Part shown: piece after piece, positions 1 to 63,758 of the stretch
Numbering within the stretch: the first letter of the stretch is position 1
Layout: each line of letters opens with the position of its first letter
DNA from: Natrialba hulunbeirensis JCM 10989
Lineage (GTDB): Archaea; Halobacteriota; Halobacteria; Halobacteriales; Natrialbaceae
Direction: 5' to 3'
DNA length: 64,000 nt
Assembly: GCF_000337575.1 (NCBI RefSeq)
Contig: NZ_AOIM01000035.1
Span: 173,498 to 237,497 of the forward strand
Translations under genes and position numbers: made by a program
The notes under the pieces: model-generated
Told to the model about the DNA's origin: nothing
The model's input: the letters and a program-made list of their open reading frames with translations, nothing else
Database searches by the model: none

Positions 1-1461
1 CAGTTCCTCGTGGAAGAAAACTCGTTCGTTCGTCATGGAGAAATCCCACTCCGAACGCGCTTGACTAACACCGACGTACTTCTGTCCTTCCTCTGGTTCA
101 AACGGCTCGATTTCGACATCCAGACCGATAACGTCGTCCTCCGTGAGCTTATCCACTTCGTCAGGCTCACTAGGACTAGTAAAGCGCGGGCTATCGTTTT
201 TGACGGAAGCGCCGTCGGCGTTGGTAAACCGATGTCTACCCCAGCGTGCCGTCCGCATCACAGCCCGCATTCTATCGGTTTCGTGATCGCTGTAGACGCG
301 ATGAACCTGGAAGACACGTTTTTGATTGAACGCTCGACTCCGAACCGTCACCATGTCGCCCTTCTCAACGCCGAGCTTGGCAGCGGTTTTTTCGTTGATT
401 CCACAGAGGAGTGCATTTCCAACCTCCTCACCCCAATCACTCAAGGCTACACCCATTCGAGGCCAGATACCGGTGAACTTTTTGACCTCACATTGCGTAC
501 CGGTATCAACATGGCCTAAACGCTCGCGGGCGTTACTACCCATTCGGATGCTTGGCCAGAAACCATCTTGGTCGTGCTGGGCCCAATAGCCGAAGCAATT
601 AGCCTGTTTGGTATCACTCCGTTCGATCCAGATATTGTCTTCCCGTGATTTAAGTTGGTCAATCTGGTACTCTGAATGTTCGAAAAATCCTTTCGAAAGC
701 CTGACTGCAAACTCGTCACCGACGTTGTCCCACTTTGTTTTAGCATACTCAATAGTTGGTTTCGGGTACGTTCGTCCAGAGGTCTCCGATGACGGTTTAT
801 ATTCCACCGGTGATGCGATGTCAGCATCCCCCAACCGTTCCCTCGCAGCGGAACTCATACGAAGTGTATTAAGCGTATAGTCTTCGTTGTGGGTCCCGGC
901 AACGCTATATAATGATTGCCCATTACCACTGAGAGAACTCACCTGAACGAAGTCCCCTACAAGATCACTATCTTCGGGTGGAACTCTGACTGTATATGGA
1001 GAACCCAATTCATACCAGCCTGTTTTTGCATAGTCGATATATGAGGGGGCTTCTTCGTCGTCTACTTTTTCCCAACTTACTTCATCATTAACTTCTGTAT
1101 TAGCTCGTTCTCGAGCATTCTTTCCCATGCGAATCGAGCTACTATAACCTTTACCGTGTGTACCATAGACTCCGAAATAGAACTCATCTGTGGTTCCTTC
1201 TACTGTAATCTTGATGATATCTCCTCCTCCGATCCCTTCAAAGCTATCTGGAACACGACAAGAATACATATCACTGATCTCTGGCCAGTCGCTCTGGGCC
1301 TTCTTGATGTATGTGCTTCCGGAGGTCTGACTAGATTCGGCCTCTCCTTCTGTTAGCGGAGTGCCTGCATCACTGCTTACTCCCGTTGCCGTCAATGCCC
1401 CGGACATGAGCATTGACCGGCGATACATTCCATCATCATTATCGTTGAAATCCTGACACAT
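1..1461 (-). CDS. Tat-exported repeat protein with barrel-like modules, 3' end cut by window edge
   Basis: Reading leftwards from the ATG at 1461, the frame stays open for about 486 codons to the window edge, so the C-terminus is missing. The N-terminus has a Tat-like signal (YRRSMLM then a short hydrophobic stretch). Beyond residue 50 a module of about 80-110 residues recurs four to five times. It begins Y-x4-A-x2-x-W and ends in an arginine-rich turn (IRMGKNARER, LRMSSAARERLG, IRMGSNARERLG, then INEKTAAKLGVEKGDMVTV). The last form resembles half of an AbrB or double-psi beta-barrel fold such as the Cdc48 N-domain; that comparison is by eye only. The start lies 3 bases after the stop of the 607-residue gene, so the two are probably one transcript. 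GGAGG at 1476-1480 is a possible ribosome site with long spacing. Function unknown. Confidence 0.75.
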   Translation of the reverse strand, partial: MCQDFNDNDDGMYRRSMLMSGALTATGVSSDAGTPLTEGEAESSQTSGSTYIKKAQSDWPEISDMYSCRVPDSFEGIGGGDIIKITVEGTTDEFYFGVYGTHGKGYSSSIRMGKNARERANTEVNDEVSWEKVDDEEAPSYIDYAKTGWYELGSPYTVRVPPEDSDLVGDFVQVSSLSGNGQSLYSVAGTHNEDYTLNTLRMSSAARERLGDADIASPVEYKPSSETSGRTYPKPTIEYAKTKWDNVGDEFAVRLSKGFFEHSEYQIDQLKSREDNIWIERSDTKQANCFGYWAQHDQDGFWPSIRMGSNARERLGHVDTGTQCEVKKFTGIWPRMGVALSDWGEEVGNALLCGINEKTAAKLGVEKGDMVTVRSRAFNQKRVFQVHRVYSDHETDRMRAVMRTARWGRHRFTNADGASVKNDSPRFTSPSEPDEVDKLTEDDVIGLDVEIEPFEPEEGQKYVGVSQARSEWDFSMTNERVFFHEEL

Positions 1462-54769: not shown

Positions 54770-55438
54770 TTACTCCGTGCGGAGCGCCGACTCGAGAAAC
54801 GGCCCCACAGTCTCGGCGACAGTGTCTGTCTGGCCGACGAAGAAGTGATCCGCAGGGAGGGTGACGACCTCGATTTCGTCTCCGTCTTCGCCTTCGTCTT
54901 CATCACCAGCCTCACACCCATCAGCTAGCTCCTGTGCCCGCTCGACCACCGGCTCCCACTCTGCCGTCGTATCTCGCTCACCGACGACAATTCTGACTGG
55001 ACAAGAGACGGACTCGAGTGCCGCCGTAGCATCCAGGTCAGGTGCGAGTGTCGCGGTTGGTGCGAGCGCGACGATGGCCGCAACTTGTGGGTCGTCCGCG
55101 CCGTCCAGGCTGGCCGGTGCGAGCAGACTGAGACTCGCACCGAAACTAAAGCCGAAGACGCCGACGCGCTCGTAGCGGTCGCCAGCCCAGCGGATGGCGT
55201 TTCGCACGTCCTCGCGCTCGCCGTAGCCCTCGTCCCACGCGCCGTAGTCGAATCGGAGGCAGGCGATTCCGTGCTCCTGCAGGCGCTCTGCGACGGCGAC
55301 GAGTCGACTGTCGCTTCGCGAGCCGCCGTGTTGGGGGTGGGGCGGACAGGCGACGACGATTGTGGCTGCCCCGTTGTCAGGCTCCGTGAGCGTCCCGCGT
55401 ACGTCTCGGCCGCCGGGCACGAGCACGTCACTGTTAGT
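54770..55438 (-). CDS. alpha/beta hydrolase
   Basis: The 222-residue protein has the nucleophile elbow GFSFGASL (Ser about 98), the acid in VGERDTTAEW and a catalytic His in LPADHFFVG near the C-terminus. CPPHPQHGGSRSDSRLVAVAERL and CLRFDYGAWDEGYGE are the oxyanion-hole and loop blocks of small hydrolases related to dienelactone-hydrolase-like proteins. The substrate is unknown. It ends in an acidic insert (GDEDEGEDGDEIE). ATG at 55438 fits the fold. Confidence 0.85.
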   Translation of the reverse strand, partial: TNSDVLVPGGRDVRGTLTEPDNGAATIVVACPPHPQHGGSRSDSRLVAVAERLQEHGIACLRFDYGAWDEGYGEREDVRNAIRWAGDRYERVGVFGFSFGASLSLLAPASLDGADDPQVAAIVALAPTATLAPDLDATAALESVSCPVRIVVGERDTTAEWEPVVERAQELADGCEAGDEDEGEDGDEIEVVTLPADHFFVGQTDTVAETVGPFLESALRTE

Positions 55439-55560
55439 CATGGCCGGTCGTTCGTGCCCGCGACTAATCAAATCGGCGAGAGACGACGCACCGGCCGGAA
55501 TTTCGTCTCAGTCTGTCGTTGATGTGATGTTTTTAAGGGTGACGAGCGTTACGTAGGAGT

Positions 55561-56442
55561 ATGGGCATCCTCTCTCGGACCTCCTACGTCATCCGGTCGA
55601 AGATCAACTCCCTGCTCAACCGGGCTGAGGACCCGACGCAGACGCTTGATTACTCATACGAGCAGATGCGCGACCAGCTTCAGGAGGTCAAACGCGGCAT
55701 TGCCGATCTCACCACCCAGAAGAAACGTCTCGAGATGCAAAAGCGGCGTCTCGAGGAGAACGTCGAGAAACACAACGAACAGGCACGAACCGCGGTACAG
55801 CAGGACCGCGAGGATCTGGCTCGGCGTGCACTCGAGAAGAAGAAGACGAAGATGAACCAGATCGAGGATCTGGAGCGCCAGATTTCGGAGCTTCAGAACC
55901 AGCAAGATCAGCTCATCGACCAGAAGGACGAGCTCCAGAACCGCATCGAGGAGTTCCGGACGAAAAAGGAGACGATGAAGGCCCGCTACGAGGCCGCCGA
56001 GGCCAGCTCGACCGTCTCCGAAGCGATGACCGCGACCGGCGAGGAGTTCGAAGACGTCGGCCGCGCCATCGAGCGCGCCGAAGAGCAGACCGAGGACATG
56101 GAGGCCCGCGCGGCCGCCCTCGACGAACTCCACGAGACCGGTGCGTTCGACGACGTCATGTCCGACAAGGACAAGATCGACCGCGAACTCGAGGACCTCT
56201 CGACGGGCAGCGGTGTCGAGGCCGAACTCGAGACGCTGAAATCCGATATGGGGCAGGAGGAAGTCGCCGCGGATACTGAGGCTGCCGGGACCAACGCCGA
56301 AACCGAAACTGAGGCAGAGGCAGAGGCAGCCGCCGAACCCACCGGTGACGTCGACCTCGACGAGTCAGACATCGAGACCGATGTTGACGACTCCGAAATC
56401 GAATCCGAACTCGCGGAACTGCAGGACGAAGAAAACTCGTAA
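55561..56442 (+). CDS. pspA: PspA/IM30 (ESCRT-III-like) membrane-stress protein
   Basis: The 293-residue protein starts GILSRTSYVIRSKINSLLNRAEDP, the amphipathic membrane-binding start of PspA/Vipp1. Residues about 30-180 are a continuous coiled coil, and the tail is acidic (ETETEAEAEAAAE). The family coats and repairs stressed membranes. Haloarchaeal members are strongly salt- and stress-linked in general, but no regulator is nearby. TTTTTAAG (55530-55537) is a likely TATA element about 28 bases before the ATG. Confidence 0.9.
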   Translation: MGILSRTSYVIRSKINSLLNRAEDPTQTLDYSYEQMRDQLQEVKRGIADLTTQKKRLEMQKRRLEENVEKHNEQARTAVQQDREDLARRALEKKKTKMNQIEDLERQISELQNQQDQLIDQKDELQNRIEEFRTKKETMKARYEAAEASSTVSEAMTATGEEFEDVGRAIERAEEQTEDMEARAAALDELHETGAFDDVMSDKDKIDRELEDLSTGSGVEAELETLKSDMGQEEVAADTEAAGTNAETETEAEAEAAAEPTGDVDLDESDIETDVDDSEIESELAELQDEENS

Positions 56443-56469
56443 CGACTCCCTTCTGTTCGCAAGCGCCGT

Positions 56470-57009
56470 CTACGTCGGCGTCCCGATAACCGCAATATCG
56501 TAGGACGCGATATCGTCCGGAGACTCGAGTAGGATCACTTCGAACGCCCATTCGCCGCCCTGGTCGAGGTCGCCGGTGGTGTCGAGGTAGCGCCCGAGTT
56601 GGTCGCCCTCGTCGTTGTAGACGCGGACGCGGATTTCGACCATTTCGACACGCTCGCCGGTGTTTTCGACGGTTCCCTGTACGGTCGAGCCGCGGAAATC
56701 GTCCTCGAAGGCGTACTCGTGGTCGACGATAGCGAGCCGGTCGAGTGGCGTCACGCCTTCCTGGCTCTCGAGTTCGGCGACCGCTTCGGCGGTTGCCATC
56801 TCTTCGACGGAGCGTTCCTCGGCGTCGTCGGGAACGTCGACGGTTCCGTCCTCGTATGTCGGACCGGTTTCGACGCCGAGGCCGAGACCGGCGTCGGTAC
56901 AGCCGGCGAGAGATGCGGGAACACCGACGCCGAGTGCGGCAAGCAGGCGTCGTCGCGTCGCCGTTCGATTCTCGCGAGTACGGCGACCGGGAGTGCTCGA
57001 CGAGGTCAT
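56470..57009 (-). CDS. Tat-exported lipoprotein with FxLYD-like domain
   Basis: RRRLLAALGVGVPASLAGC is a Tat signal with lipobox Cys. The body (LAIVDHEYAFEDDFRGSTVQGTVENTGERVEMVEIRVRVYNDEGDQLGRYLDTT) is typical of the FxLYD family, a beta-sandwich seen in secreted lipoproteins. It should be lipid-anchored outside. ATG at 57009 is preferred over 57018. It converges on pspA. Confidence 0.82.
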   Translation of the reverse strand: MTSSSTPGRRTRENRTATRRRLLAALGVGVPASLAGCTDAGLGLGVETGPTYEDGTVDVPDDAEERSVEEMATAEAVAELESQEGVTPLDRLAIVDHEYAFEDDFRGSTVQGTVENTGERVEMVEIRVRVYNDEGDQLGRYLDTTGDLDQGGEWAFEVILLESPDDIASYDIAVIGTPT

Positions 57010-57145
57010 CTCGGCCACCGTCGATAGGCTACCAGCAGTTCTCTCTGGACGGATGTGGGCATCGCTGGTGAGAGCGACACTGCCGACGCATTTTAGTGTA
57101 GGCCCTGAACCGTCAGCCTGGCGGTGTTCGTGGTGGCTTTTGTGC

Positions 57146-57258
57146 TCTCGCGTTCTCGCCTTCTTGTTTTCTCATCCTTTTGCTTTCTCGCGTTCTCGCC
57201 TTCTTGTTTTCTCATCCTTTTGCTTTCTCGCGTTCTCGCTTTTTCGTTTTCTCACCTT
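57146..57258. repeat. 40-bp T-rich tandem repeat, nearly three copies
   Basis: Units start at 57146, 57186 and 57226 (TCTCGCGTTCTCGCCTTCTT at the start of each). The first two are identical over the 40 bases; the third is diverged after about 15. The minus strand reads as AG-rich. It is in the gap between the lipoprotein and the membrane cassette. There are no spacers, so it is not CRISPR. Confidence 0.88.
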
Positions 57259-57387
57259 CTCGTACGTTCGACCTCTCACCGTAGTCTCCGCCACGATCAC
57301 ATACGAACGCCGGCATGAGCGCTCACGATCCGTGAGAGTAGGATATGCAACGCAGGCGCTTATTGTCACGTCGGTGGAACGCCAGCT

Positions 57388-58443
57388 ATGGCGGCTCCGG
57401 AGGCAGACGAGGCGCTCGAGTCGTATGGCACGGATATGGGTCAACGAACGAACTCACTGACCCGGGTTCGAGAGTGGCTGCTAGTCGACGGTGATCGGTT
57501 ACTCGTCGCCGCACTCATCTCGCTCGTCATATTCGTTCTCTTCTTGCTCCTGAACGAACTCGGTCTGATCTCGTTCGTCAACGATGATTCGATCACCCGC
57601 CTGGCCGGCGGCATGATCGCCGGAACGTTCTCGCTCGTCACCCTCGTCGTCTCGATCAACCAGCTCATCCTCTCACAGGAGTTCGCGGCCGCTGGCGACG
57701 CTCGCAGTCAGCTTGAGGGCGTCCTCTCGTTTCGGATGGACGTCTCTGACACCGCTGGCGCACCAGCGCCACCGGCATCACCGGCGGCCTTCCTCGAGTT
57801 GCTCGCCGAGTCGATCCACTCGAGTGCGTCGACGCTCTCGGAATCGGTTGCGGGCCACGAAAATGAGGATCTGGAGACGTTGATCGGCCAGTACACACAG
57901 TCGGTGTTCGAGAGTAGTGACCGTCTCGACGACACACTCGAACACTCGGAACTCGACGCGTTTACTGCATTATCGGCGGCGATCGGCTACAATGCGCCGT
58001 GGCAGCTGTACGTTGCTCGCCAGCTTCGGAATCGGTACGATGACGAACTCTCGGATGAATCGGTCGGTGCACTCGACGATCTGATCAACGACCTGACGCT
58101 GTTTGCGACCGCACGCGAGCACTTCAAGACGACATACCTGCAACGAGAACTGACGCGCTTCTCACAGCTGACGATCTATACGGGCGTGCCGGCGATTCTG
58201 GCGGCGATGCTCATCGGCTTCATCTACGCTGACTTCACCGGCCCGAGTATGACCGTTGCATATCTGCCGTACGTCGTTAGCGCGCTCATCACGGTCGTTC
58301 TTGCGCCGCTTGCCTTGCTCGCGTCGTACATCCTCCGCACCGCATCGGTCACGCGCCGCACTGCGTCGGTCGGTCCGATGATGCCCCAGAAAGAGCCCGA
58401 AAGTGGTCCGTTTTCCACCTCTGGAAGCGAGGAACTCGAGTAG
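57388..58443 (+). CDS. membrane protein A of the HPP cassette, 351 aa
   Basis: Residues about 35-110 have two membrane helices (LLVAALISLVIFVLFLLLNELGLI, MIAGTFSLVTLVVSINQLIL), then the block SINQLILSQEFAAAGDARSQLEG. A cytosolic helical domain follows, then AREHFKTTYLQRELTRFSQL and two C-terminal helices with ASYILRTASVTRRT. The protein at 59273 has the same length (351 aa) and the same blocks, flanking an HPP-family gene. No named family is assigned. CTTATTG about 30 bases before the ATG suggests a leaderless start. Confidence 0.75.
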   Translation: MAAPEADEALESYGTDMGQRTNSLTRVREWLLVDGDRLLVAALISLVIFVLFLLLNELGLISFVNDDSITRLAGGMIAGTFSLVTLVVSINQLILSQEFAAAGDARSQLEGVLSFRMDVSDTAGAPAPPASPAAFLELLAESIHSSASTLSESVAGHENEDLETLIGQYTQSVFESSDRLDDTLEHSELDAFTALSAAIGYNAPWQLYVARQLRNRYDDELSDESVGALDDLINDLTLFATAREHFKTTYLQRELTRFSQLTIYTGVPAILAAMLIGFIYADFTGPSMTVAYLPYVVSALITVVLAPLALLASYILRTASVTRRTASVGPMMPQKEPESGPFSTSGSEELE

Positions 58444-58604
58444 GGAGCGGTCTTGGCTTCGTCCTTAGTCCAGTCTCGGTCTCGGTCTCGGTTACTGATC
58501 TGCTGTCCACTGCGGTTCCCATATCGAACAGTCACTGCTCGCTGTTTGTTCGGTGCGCCTTCCGGGCTGACACTTATACCGCCGGTCGTGTTCACCAACA
58601 GTCG

Positions 58605-59171
58605 ATGGGCTTTTGGAACAAGGTCCGTGCCAGCACGGAAGAGACGATCAACGTTCGAGATGACTTGAGCGCTGGCACGAACGTGACACTTCACTTCCTC
58701 TTTCTCGGCGGGCTCGCCTGGGCGTCCGGCCAGCCGTTTCTCTTTCCGAGTCTGGGCCCGTCCGCCTACCTCCTCGCGACCGGCGAGAAAGACCGTGCCG
58801 AGGGTCCCTACCACGTCATCGGTGGCCACGCCGTCGCGGCCATCTGCGGGCTCATCGCGTACGTCCTCTTCGCCGACGGCATCGTCGTCGTCGACGCCTT
58901 CGAACAGGGCGAACCCTTCTCGAGTGAGGTCGGCAGACTCGTCATCAGCGGCATCGTTGCGATGATGTTGACGACCGTCGGGATGCTCTGGACAAATACG
59001 AACCATCCCGCAGCCTGTGCGACGACGCTCATCGTCGCGCTGGGGCTCATGTCGACACTCCTCGAGGGGGTAATCATCGTTATCGCGGTTGCGTTGCTCG
59101 TCGTCTTCCACAACACTATCGTTGACTACGTTCAGGATCTCTACGGCGTTGAACCCGAGGATCCCCGATAG
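58605..59171 (+). CDS. HPP-family membrane protein
   Basis: The 188-residue protein has four to five membrane helices and the HPP blocks LFPSLGPSAYLLAT and NTNHPAACATTL, where the classical His-Pro-Pro reads His-Pro-Ala. Plant and cyanobacterial HPP proteins transport nitrite; the role in archaea is unknown. The first 30 residues are a cytosolic tail. It lies between two paralogous membrane genes, 161 bases after one and 101 before the other. Confidence 0.85.
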   Translation: MGFWNKVRASTEETINVRDDLSAGTNVTLHFLFLGGLAWASGQPFLFPSLGPSAYLLATGEKDRAEGPYHVIGGHAVAAICGLIAYVLFADGIVVVDAFEQGEPFSSEVGRLVISGIVAMMLTTVGMLWTNTNHPAACATTLIVALGLMSTLLEGVIIVIAVALLVVFHNTIVDYVQDLYGVEPEDPR

Positions 59172-59272
59172 CGTTCGAGTGACTGCCGATATGGACACTT
59201 TCGGGCAGTGTGCTCCCGACGACTTCCTGCCAACGGTTTTTGTAACTCGACGTGGTCGGTCCGCTACAGTCG

Positions 59273-60328
59273 ATGAGCAACGCGAATTCGGGCGCGACAG
59301 ACGACGGGTCGGCGAGTGGACCAGAGGACACGGAAAGCACCGAACGACTCGGTGGCCTGAAGCTCTGGCTCTTGCTCCGCGTCAATCGCCTTACACTCAC
59401 AGCGAGCGTTCTCATTGTCGTGTTTGCAATTCTGGTCGTCACAAGCCAGATCGGCTTAACGCCGTTGCGCGAAATCGTGGCCAATCAGGACGGTATTGAG
59501 TTCCTGTTCTCCTCGTTCATCGGTGCGATCATCACCGGTACCTCGATCGTCGTCACGATCAACCAGCTTGTTCTCTCCCAAGAACTGGGGGCCGTTGGAA
59601 GCCAGCGAAGTCGGATGCAAGAATCGGTCAAGTTCCGACAGGATACCGAGGACACGATTAGCGAGGATATCAGTCCTCCAGAGCCGGCCGGCTTCCTCTT
59701 CGAACTCGTCGACGGCGTTCAGGAACGAGCGGACGAACTCGAGTCCGCCATCGAAGACGAACGTGACGCGGAGCTTCGGGAGGCGATCAACGACTACACC
59801 GGCGACGTTCGGAAGAACGCGGATCACGTCAAAGACGACCTCGAAGACGCCCAGTTCGGCACGTTCGAGGTAATCTGGGGAGCGCTCAAGTACAACTACT
59901 CGCGAAAGATCTACGACGCGCGTAAGATCCGCGTCGACCACGAGGATTCGCTCACCGAGGAGGCAAACGAGAAACTCGACGAGATGATCGATACGCTCAA
60001 ACTGTTCGGTCCGGCTCGTGAGCACTTCAAGACGCTGTACTTTCAGTGGGAACTGATCAACCTCTCTCGGGGACTGCTCTACATCGCGGTGCCCGCACTG
60101 ACAGTGATGGGGATTATGATTATGTATATCGACGCGAGTGCGCTGCCGGGGACCACACTCGGTGTCGACAACCTCGTCTGGCTCACCAGTGCGGGCTTCG
60201 TGATCGGAATCTCCCCGTTCGTGCTGTTCATCGCATACATCCTCCGAATCGCAACGATCGCGAAACGGACGCTCGCAATGGGGCCGTTCATCCTCCGGGA
60301 ATCCGGCCGGGACGAGGATCTGGGCTGA
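59273..60328 (+). CDS. membrane protein B of the HPP cassette, 351 aa
   Basis: This is a paralogue of the protein at 57388 with equal length and the same order of blocks: TINQLVLSQELGAVGSQRSR after two helices, AREHFKTLYFQWELINLSRG, and AYILRIATIAKRT before the C-terminus. The cytosolic middle is acidic. The equal length suggests a heteromeric pair with the HPP protein, though the sequence cannot show it. ATG at 59273 is chosen over 59252 because it begins the acidic tail typical of the pair. Function unknown. Confidence 0.75.
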   Translation: MSNANSGATDDGSASGPEDTESTERLGGLKLWLLLRVNRLTLTASVLIVVFAILVVTSQIGLTPLREIVANQDGIEFLFSSFIGAIITGTSIVVTINQLVLSQELGAVGSQRSRMQESVKFRQDTEDTISEDISPPEPAGFLFELVDGVQERADELESAIEDERDAELREAINDYTGDVRKNADHVKDDLEDAQFGTFEVIWGALKYNYSRKIYDARKIRVDHEDSLTEEANEKLDEMIDTLKLFGPAREHFKTLYFQWELINLSRGLLYIAVPALTVMGIMIMYIDASALPGTTLGVDNLVWLTSAGFVIGISPFVLFIAYILRIATIAKRTLAMGPFILRESGRDEDLG

Positions 60329-60451
60329 GTCGGCTCGCCCGACTCTGGTGCGATCCGTTGACGGACATCTACCAGAACAGCTATGTCGCCATCAGAGCCT
60401 GGTGGCTGGTCACAAGGCACATGTACACCTGCCGTCTTGTGAGCAGTAGTC

Positions 60452-61231
60452 ATGGACATTCGCGCCGAAACAGCGTTCGTTACCGGCGGCAGCGTTGGCA
60501 TCGGTCGTCAGATCAGCCTCGAACTCGCGAGCCACGGTATTACGGTCGTTGTCGCGGACCTCGAGGAGTCAGCACGCCAGGAGACAGTCGACGGGATCGA
60601 GGCCACAGGCGGGTCGGCGATCGAAACACACCTCGATCTTACCGATCCCGAGAGCGTCACTGCGGCGATCGAAACGGCCAGAGACCAGATTGGTCAGCTT
60701 GACGTTCTCGTCAACAACGCCGGAATCGCAGGACCGACGGCCCCGATCGAGAACGTCTCCCTCGAGGAGTGGGACGAGACACTGTCGGTCAACCTCCGCG
60801 GGCCGTTCCTCTGTACGAAAGCGGTACTCGAGGCGATGAAGGGCCGAGAGTACGGCCGCATCATCAACATCTCCTCGGCGTCGGGCAAGCGGGTGGTTCC
60901 CGAACGGAGTCCGTACACGAGTTCGAAAGCGGGAATTCTCGGTCTTACGCGAACGACTGCGGCGGAGGGCGGCCCACACGGTGTCACGGCAAACGCGATC
61001 TGTCCCGGGTCAGTTGAGGGGCCACGGATCGAGGCCGTTATCGACGAGGAAGCGGCCACCTCCGAGAAATCACGCGAGGAAATCGTCGCCGAAAAGGAAG
61101 GGAAGACGCTCACCCACTCGTTCGTCACGCCAGCGGATGTGGCACAGACTGTCTCTTACCTCTGTTCTGACGCTGCGGATCGGGTTACGGGCCAGGCGCT
61201 CAACGTCTCCGGCGGCAAAGTTACCTACTGA
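60452..61231 (+). CDS. short-chain dehydrogenase/reductase
   Basis: The 259-residue classical SDR has the NAD(P) motif VTGGSVGIGRQI (residues 10-21), NNAGIAG, the catalytic Ser in INISSASG and Tyr-x3-Lys in YTSSKAG (Tyr about 155). ADLEESARQ suggests an acidic residue after strand two, which favours NAD over NADP. The C-terminus (VTGQALNVSGGKVTY) is typical. The substrate cannot be told. It is a single gene. Confidence 0.9.
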   Translation: MDIRAETAFVTGGSVGIGRQISLELASHGITVVVADLEESARQETVDGIEATGGSAIETHLDLTDPESVTAAIETARDQIGQLDVLVNNAGIAGPTAPIENVSLEEWDETLSVNLRGPFLCTKAVLEAMKGREYGRIINISSASGKRVVPERSPYTSSKAGILGLTRTTAAEGGPHGVTANAICPGSVEGPRIEAVIDEEAATSEKSREEIVAEKEGKTLTHSFVTPADVAQTVSYLCSDAADRVTGQALNVSGGKVTY

Positions 61232-61311
61232 GTCAGCTCTCTCCTGGAACATCCAGCTGAAAAACGATACAATCGACTGCGATGGGGCGTCACACTGTCT
61301 CCACGGGATCG

Positions 61312-61656
61312 CTACAGCGGCGCACCGACCAGCACTAGCTTCGCACGCTCGTCACCGCGGTTGTGTAACTGGCGGGTCTCCTCTGGATCGAGTCGAATGG
61401 CCTCGTCCGACTCGAGTGTCACTGTCTCCTCGCGGTCGGTCAGGTCGACGTCGATTTCACCCTCGACGACGTAGTAGATCTCTTCCTGATCCGTCTGGGT
61501 CTCGTCGTGTTCTTTCCCCTTGCCGTCGGGCTCGAGTTCGAGAACCGAGAGGCCGAGTTCGTTTGTTCCCAGTTCGTCCTTGAGAAACCACATGCCGCCG
61601 AACTCTTCGGGAACGACCGACTCTGGATCAGTTTTTGCTGCAGTATCGTAGCCCAT
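61312..61656 (-). CDS. cupin-domain protein
   Basis: The 114-residue protein has a single cupin barrel with motif 1 around EHDETQTDQEEIYYVVEGEIDVDL (His and Glu ligands) and motif 2 around LDPEETRQLHNRGDERAKLVLVGAP. The fold usually binds a metal or a small ligand. It could be an isomerase, dioxygenase or binding protein. ATG at 61656 marks the compact protein; upstream in-frame codons look non-coding. Confidence 0.82.
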   Translation of the reverse strand: MGYDTAAKTDPESVVPEEFGGMWFLKDELGTNELGLSVLELEPDGKGKEHDETQTDQEEIYYVVEGEIDVDLTDREETVTLESDEAIRLDPEETRQLHNRGDERAKLVLVGAPL

Positions 61657-62493: not shown

Positions 62494-63633
62494 CTATGGC
62501 AGGAATCGGTCCAACAACGGGAGTTCGATTTCGTGTGGGAGTTGGGCAGGTCGTTCCTGTTCCGGGAGGACGTCCCAGCCGAGGTCGTCCGTGCTGGGGT
62601 CGGCGTCGGTTTCGAAGCCGGCTTCGGCGACGGGCGGCTGTTCGCGGTATTCGGCCGGTGGTGCGTCGTGTGCGTAGACGCCCTCGGGGTGGTCGATCGT
62701 CCAGACGTGCATCATGCAGGGTGTGCGACAGGGAAGGGTCTTCTCGCCGTCGGTGAACTGGGTTTCGTAGGCCTGCTGGTAGAACCACCACGCGAAGCGA
62801 CCGGGGAGGCCAGCGTGGTAGTGCCAGGGTGAGCAGTGGGTGTCGGTTTCGTCTCCGTGGTCGTCGTGTCCGTGCTCGTCATGTTCGTGTCCATCGTGCC
62901 CGTGGTCGTCGTGTCCGTGCTCATCATCGCTGTGCTCGTGGTCGTCGTTCCCGTGCTCGTCGTCGCCATGCTCGTCGTGTCCATACCCATTCCCGTTTTC
63001 GTGCTCGTGTCCATCCCCGTGGCTGTGACTGTAACTGTCCCCCTCCCCGTTTCCGTCCCCGTGGTGTGCTCCATAGTCGTCGTCTCCATCGTCATCACGA
63101 CCAGCACCGTCCTCGTCGTACACCACCGGCGGCTCGACCGCCTCTCCGTCGCGCGTCGCGATGAACATGACACCGATGGAGCGCCAAGAGCTGTTGTCGA
63201 CGAGGACGGACTCCGGTCGCGTCGGATCCAGAACGTCGTCGTCGCCGATGAACTCCGGGTTGAGCCAGTGGGACCAGCCGTCCTCGTCGGCCACGTCGAG
63301 AGTATCGAAGTACGGTTTGAACCCCGCGTCGAGCAGCGCACCCGCGTCCGGATACTCGCTCTCGAGTGTCTGCTGGACCGCCTCCCGAAGTTCGATCGTC
63401 ACGGGGTGGTCGTCAGCACAGCCCTCCATACTCGCTCCCTCACAGTGACCCATACTCGGCCTGACCGTCGCGTCGGGGCAGCGCTCGAACGCCGCGTGAC
63501 CCTCGCCCGGTCCGTTCGCACCGTCTGCACTCGCCGCTCCCGTACCGAAAACAGAAAGTGCAGCGGCGCTCCCGGATGCTTGCAGTACTGTCCGCCGAGA
63601 GATGCGCACCCGCTCACTGTCGTCTTCGCTCAT
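62494..63633 (-). CDS. Tat-exported protein with very His/Asp-rich metal-binding linker
   Basis: ISRRTVLQASGSAAALSVFGTGAASA is a Tat signal. Residues about 60-200 form a compact domain (HPVTIELREAVQQTLESEYPDAGALLDAGFKPYFDT, SVLVDNSSWRSIGVMFIATRDG). A linker at about 200-275 is then almost only His, Asp, Gly and Glu. A Cys/His domain follows (CSPWHYHAGLPGRFAWWFYQQAYETQF, CRTPCMMHVWTIDHPEGVYAHDAP). The linker is likely to bind many metal ions outside the cell. I do not recognise a named family. Confidence 0.75.
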   Translation of the reverse strand: MSEDDSERVRISRRTVLQASGSAAALSVFGTGAASADGANGPGEGHAAFERCPDATVRPSMGHCEGASMEGCADDHPVTIELREAVQQTLESEYPDAGALLDAGFKPYFDTLDVADEDGWSHWLNPEFIGDDDVLDPTRPESVLVDNSSWRSIGVMFIATRDGEAVEPPVVYDEDGAGRDDDGDDDYGAHHGDGNGEGDSYSHSHGDGHEHENGNGYGHDEHGDDEHGNDDHEHSDDEHGHDDHGHDGHEHDEHGHDDHGDETDTHCSPWHYHAGLPGRFAWWFYQQAYETQFTDGEKTLPCRTPCMMHVWTIDHPEGVYAHDAPPAEYREQPPVAEAGFETDADPSTDDLGWDVLPEQERPAQLPHEIELPLLDRFLP

Positions 63634-63758
63634 GCCAGCATCACCACAGCAACTGGCGTTGTAAACCATGTTGGCGGTCCGAGAGACCGTCTTTTCTATC
63701 GAAAACGCGTGTCAGCAGAAATGGCTACACCACGGTGCTCGTCGACGAGCGCAGTCGA

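Follow-up and report, generated by a model that had tools for sequence, protein, structure and literature searches.

PspA/IM30 proteins are widespread in haloarchaea. In Haloferax volcanii, PspA rises under salinity stress, and HVO_2637, a protein with four transmembrane segments (TMs), has its gene downstream of pspA (Popp and colleagues, PMC9239133); the same work describes archaeal Psp networks as largely unknown. For the HPP family, PMC4137279 states that plant and cyanobacterial members carry nitrite, and that the relative AtNITR2;1 transports nitrite (citing Maeda 2014). Here we describe a locus of Natrialba hulunbeirensis JCM 10989, within a stretch of 64,000 nucleotides that was analysed as a whole (hereafter the window), in which an HPP gene lies between two four-TM (4TM) paralogues, P1 and P3, downstream of a PspA/IM30 gene (Table 1).

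Table 1. Positions of genes, promoter-like boxes and repeats in the window
Feature	Position	Strand	Description
Alpha/beta-hydrolase-like	54770..55471	-	Divergent from PspA, in conserved block; FSH1/DLH Pfam matches weak, below cut-off
PspA/IM30 homologue	55561..56442	+	Upstream of 4TM array; PF04012, E 3.7e-32
Putative lipoprotein	56470..57018	-	N-terminal LAGC, lipobox-like; kept between PspA and P1 in Natrialbaceae
40-bp tandem repeat	57146-57258		2.8 copies, 94% matches; 130 bp upstream of P1
TATA-like box TTATT	57360..57364	+	28 nt upstream of P1 ATG; putative, read in the sequence
P1, 4TM paralogue	57388..58443	+	351 aa
P1 segments (residues)	TM1 ~38-56; TM2 ~72-95; acidic helical domain ~97-257; TM3 ~261-281; TM4 ~293-315		Predicted
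TATA-like box TTATA	58574..58578	+	31 nt upstream of HPP ATG
HPP, TM_HPP protein	58605..59171	+	188 aa; Pfam profile match and predicted structure
T-rich box	59237..59241	+	36 nt upstream of P3 ATG; putative, weak, read in the sequence
P3, 4TM paralogue	59273..60328	+	351 aa counted from ATG
His/Asp/Gly-rich protein	62494-63669	-	Probably secreted; His/Asp/Gly-rich repeat region, possibly metal-binding
Tandem repeats	62849-62982		Within the His/Asp/Gly-rich protein gene

Results

A 4TM protein family of Halobacteria

As the initial annotation had recognized, the HPP gene is flanked on the same strand by genes for two related membrane proteins: P1 and P3, which align over 304 aa at 34% identity (E 6e-59), are paralogues that share the blocks INQL[IV]LSQE, AREHFKT.Y and [SA]YILR, the last in the version SYILR in P1. 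Their equal length, also pointed out there, holds when both are counted from ATG; it depends on the chosen start (the longest ORF of P3 begins at a GTG at 59252 and encodes 358 aa) and carries no significance in a family of ~340-370 aa. Besides this pair, the N. hulunbeirensis genome encodes three further P1-type paralogues and, elsewhere, a second HPP gene. An Rfam search of positions 55000-61500 yielded zero matches.

The AlphaFold2 model of P1 (120 sequences, pLDDT 86.3, pTM 0.80) runs from TM1 and TM2 through a long helix into a helical bundle, and back through a second long helix to TM3 and TM4, an arrangement with which the hydropathy of P1 is consistent. The central domain is acidic (K+R 10 vs. 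D+E 29), a composition typical of the soluble parts of haloarchaeal proteins, and this helical domain of P1 and P3 would project into the cytosol. Residues E98, R243, K247 and R317 are conserved and located near the TM ends. Searches of P1 and P3 against Pfam and NCBIfam gave no family match, only weak and inconsistent ones, as did searches of 18 4TM family members against Pfam, in which PspB, PspC, LiaI-LiaF-TM and Toastrack were not matched. Sequence and fold searches of the PDB with P1 and HPP were topped by coiled coils, designed bundles, and unrelated receptors or transporters, none of them significant; for P1, no fold match reached E 0.001 in a type of search for which long helices are difficult.

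The 4TM family is essentially confined to Halobacteria: across 148 genomes of the phylum, it was found in 19 of the 24 belonging to the window's order and in 1 of ~124 others. This single outlier (G323:C2:322045-323064, locus L270) is a full 4TM homologue without PspA, for which transfer or a binning error is possible. Plasmid records carrying the family label its members just "hypothetical protein". P1 and P3 are best read as members of an uncharacterised, unnamed and Halobacteria-specific family, whose membrane proteins are linked to PspA and carry a long stalk of helices.

PspA is the more widely conserved neighbour

PspA, absent from the initial annotation, is a more widely conserved neighbour of 4TM genes than HPP. 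It occurs in 34/36 fetched array loci, and within the 6-kb flank of 58/79 loci from public genomes, these having been selected by 4TM similarity. Outside Natrialbaceae, 23 of the loci selected in this way bear PspA, and in 14 of them PspA is followed directly by a 4TM gene on the same strand, with a gap of 22-192 bp in 13 of these 14 pairs. The genera with PspA-4TM loci include Haladaptatus, Haloprofundus, Halogeometricum, Halorientalis, Halarchaeum and Halobium. A separate check of 22 genomes covered 14 other-family genomes having both genes, which were at most 5 kb apart in 6 of them, and identified two genomes (G323 and G144) with 4TM but without PspA above the cut-off, as well as four with PspA but without 4TM. 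Many 4TM paralogues are also located far from PspA, and the link across Halobacteria is strong but not obligate. Part of it may correspond to plain gene-order conservation, because the alpha/beta-hydrolase gene and f7/f10 are also syntenic, and it is not wholly new, since the H. volcanii four-TM protein downstream of pspA had already been noted.

Other neighbours recur at these loci. The putative lipoprotein between PspA and P1 had zero Pfam matches. Among L129, L142, L150, L157 and other loci, a RIC/ScdA-type di-iron repair protein (PF04405 plus hemerythrin) is encoded downstream of the 4TM array in several genomes, and in others a divergently oriented HPP gene has that of a halocyanin-like blue copper protein next to it.

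A motif-divergent HPP protein

The middle gene product matches TM_HPP (PF04982) with an E-value of 5e-17 and 62.4 bits, against a cut-off of 27.2. Its motif is His-Pro-Ala (NHPAAC), as initially annotated, and not the His-Pro-Pro signature, so that it is classed by profile as a divergent, non-canonical relative; HPAAC or HAAAC is found across its clade, and the other HPP encoded in the genome has HPPAC. The predicted structure (pLDDT 87.7, pTM 0.82, from only 24 sequences) consists of a helix, a short half-helix and a helix, twice over, with the half-helices at residues 46-59 and 137-145. Most of the invariant residues fall in these two half-helix regions, and the modelled anatomy would be channel- or transporter-like.

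By analogy, nitrite is a possible substrate, since plant and cyanobacterial HPP proteins transport it. The nitrite role initially suggested for this protein found no echo in gene content: across 125 Natrialbaceae genomes, window-type HPP was associated neither with the copper nitrite reductase NirK (24/44 genomes with HPP vs. 44/81 without, p 1.0) nor with NIR_SIR (p 0.17). We flag this clade as one whose substrate may differ from nitrite. A literature search for HPP in haloarchaea returned nothing relevant.

The HPP gene appears to have decayed recently in L098 (G045), where it contains an internal TGA, and in L176/L147 (Salinadaptatus halalkaliphilus), where it is split across two frames. 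The second HPP type (HPPAC) is adjoined by 4TM paralogues in L163, L026, L028, L031 and others, and adjoins UspA and DUF7118 where looked at.

A TTAT/TTTTT box starts 30-32 nt before the HPP ATG in 16/17 loci (some from the same species) vs. 1% of random positions. A box ~30 nt before the ATG fits leaderless haloarchaeal transcripts, and its recurrence suggests that HPP may be transcribed from a separate promoter. A reading of P1-HPP-P3 as one operon is disfavoured by this promoter-like box.

HPP is associated with P1 but not with P3

Across the 125 Natrialbaceae genomes, P1 orthologues were detected in 103, close P3 orthologues in 69, and window-type HPP in 44. Both P1 and P3 occur in 66 genomes, and in 63 of these they share a strand and are no more than 3 kb apart. 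P1 was present in 44/44 genomes with HPP vs. 59/81 without (Fisher p 3e-5, uncorrected for the relatedness of the genomes, as in all our co-occurrence tests). In 41 of the 44 genomes the HPP and P1 genes were no more than 3 kb apart, and in the remaining three >1 Mb apart. An HPP-P1 association exceeding chance is supported by these counts. P3 did not track HPP in the same genomes (27/44 vs. 42/81, Fisher p 0.35), and was rejected as the HPP partner for this lack of association.

The arrangement itself is variable. 4TM arrays comprise 1-5 paralogues, not all of them on one strand; most arrays are without HPP, and where HPP is present its position and orientation vary, including placements upstream of P1 in either the divergent or the same direction. 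The link between HPP and the paralogues nevertheless survives the possibility, raised at the outset, that the genes might rarely co-occur or never be adjacent, because both co-occurrence and adjacency recur. As for conserved synteny of the triplet, which the initial annotation proposed to check, the exact order P1>HPP>P3 was found in 15/125 genomes. The three-part membrane complex it suggested is not supported as a fixed unit, in view of this rarity, of the independence of P3, and of the 59 genomes in which P1 occurs without window-type HPP. HPP is best described as an accessory neighbour of the 4TM family, rather than as the constant centre of a nitrite complex with three parts.

HPP-4TM adjacency extends to other families of the order (f2, f4 and f9). 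The 60 genomes considered there encode 86 HPP domains, at least 11 of which (in at least 10 genomes) have a 4TM gene at 3 kb or less and at least 9 at 600 bp or less, where for the latter ~0.2 would be expected from random placement (a rough estimate). Such neighbouring pairs are spread over several separate clades of HPP, and their orientations differ. On a tree of 109 HPPs, the adjacency label changes 13 times, at least 8 by starred branches, figures from which the number of gains is not readable because the sample includes loci picked via 4TM and many branches are long. In 16 of the 60 genomes, a second, long HPP-domain protein (frames mostly 460-700 aa) is encoded 15-29 kb away from the principal 4TM gene, reflecting either old synteny or a wider link.

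Discussion

The reading we favour, with a confidence slightly short of even, is that 4TM proteins form a PspA-linked membrane-stress module beside which HPP was recruited as an accessory, permease-like protein. The 4TM proteins, anchored in the membrane, would most likely serve as partners or receptors of PspA/IM30, the ESCRT-III-like protein encoded next to them, in a module enlarged by tandem duplication in Natrialbaceae. The small HPP, placed next to P1 under what may be its own promoter, would probably move a small solute or ion and work with P1. A more elaborate version, in which 4TM is the membrane receptor of this ESCRT-III relative via a cytosolic stalk, and gates or stabilises an HPP channel under membrane stress, is distinctly less likely; if true, the haloarchaeal Psp system would be made of parts unlike the bacterial ones.

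Among the alternatives, HPP and P1 may instead work as a pair without PspA, HPP as the permease and P1 as its regulatory or anchoring subunit, and the adjacency of PspA would reflect only old gene order. This is unlikely but the best of the remaining explanations: HPP genomes always include P1, even the three in which the genes are >1 Mb apart, and the second HPP type and other-family HPPs likewise adjoin 4TM genes. However, most 4TM genes have no adjoining HPP, and short, same-strand PspA-4TM pairs exist in many genera without one. Rather unlikely is the explanation that no functional link exists at all, HPP having been brought by chance into a duplication-prone region of old synteny and kept by descent. 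The synteny of further unrelated genes, an HPP adjacency in clade A that may trace to a single event, and the decay of HPP in two genomes are consistent with this, whereas the excess of close HPP-4TM pairs in the 60 other-family genomes and their recurrence in separate clades and orientations argue against it. A single P1-HPP-P3 complex for nitrite transport is very improbable, since the same-strand adjacency of all three genes in 15 genomes, the activity of AtNITR2;1 (PMC4137279, citing Maeda 2014), and the halocyanin-like and RIC/ScdA proteins nearby in some genomes are outweighed by an untied P3, a variable order, arrays mostly lacking HPP, absent co-occurrence with NirK and NIR_SIR, and the box ahead of HPP.

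Under the PspA-linked module that we favour, the 4TM family represents a concrete, unnamed and Halobacteria-wide candidate for a PspA partner, with a confidently predicted fold and residues for mutation. Compared to AtNITR2;1 and the cyanobacterial nitrite transporters, the window HPP is alike in its above-cut-off match to TM_HPP, and shares with the HPP family the predicted helix, half-helix, helix repeat with invariant residues at the half-helices. It differs from that family in the His-Pro-Ala or His-Ala-Ala of its clade in place of the eponymous His-Pro-Pro, and in its location among 4TM paralogues without nitrite reductase co-occurrence. The bacterial Psp network (PspB, PspC, LiaI-LiaF) similarly has a PspA/IM30 gene beside membrane protein genes, whereas the 4TM family gave no Pfam match to known Psp membrane domains and is arranged in tandem arrays. 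By description, HVO_2637 of H. volcanii, with four TMs and a position downstream of pspA, may be a member of the 4TM family.
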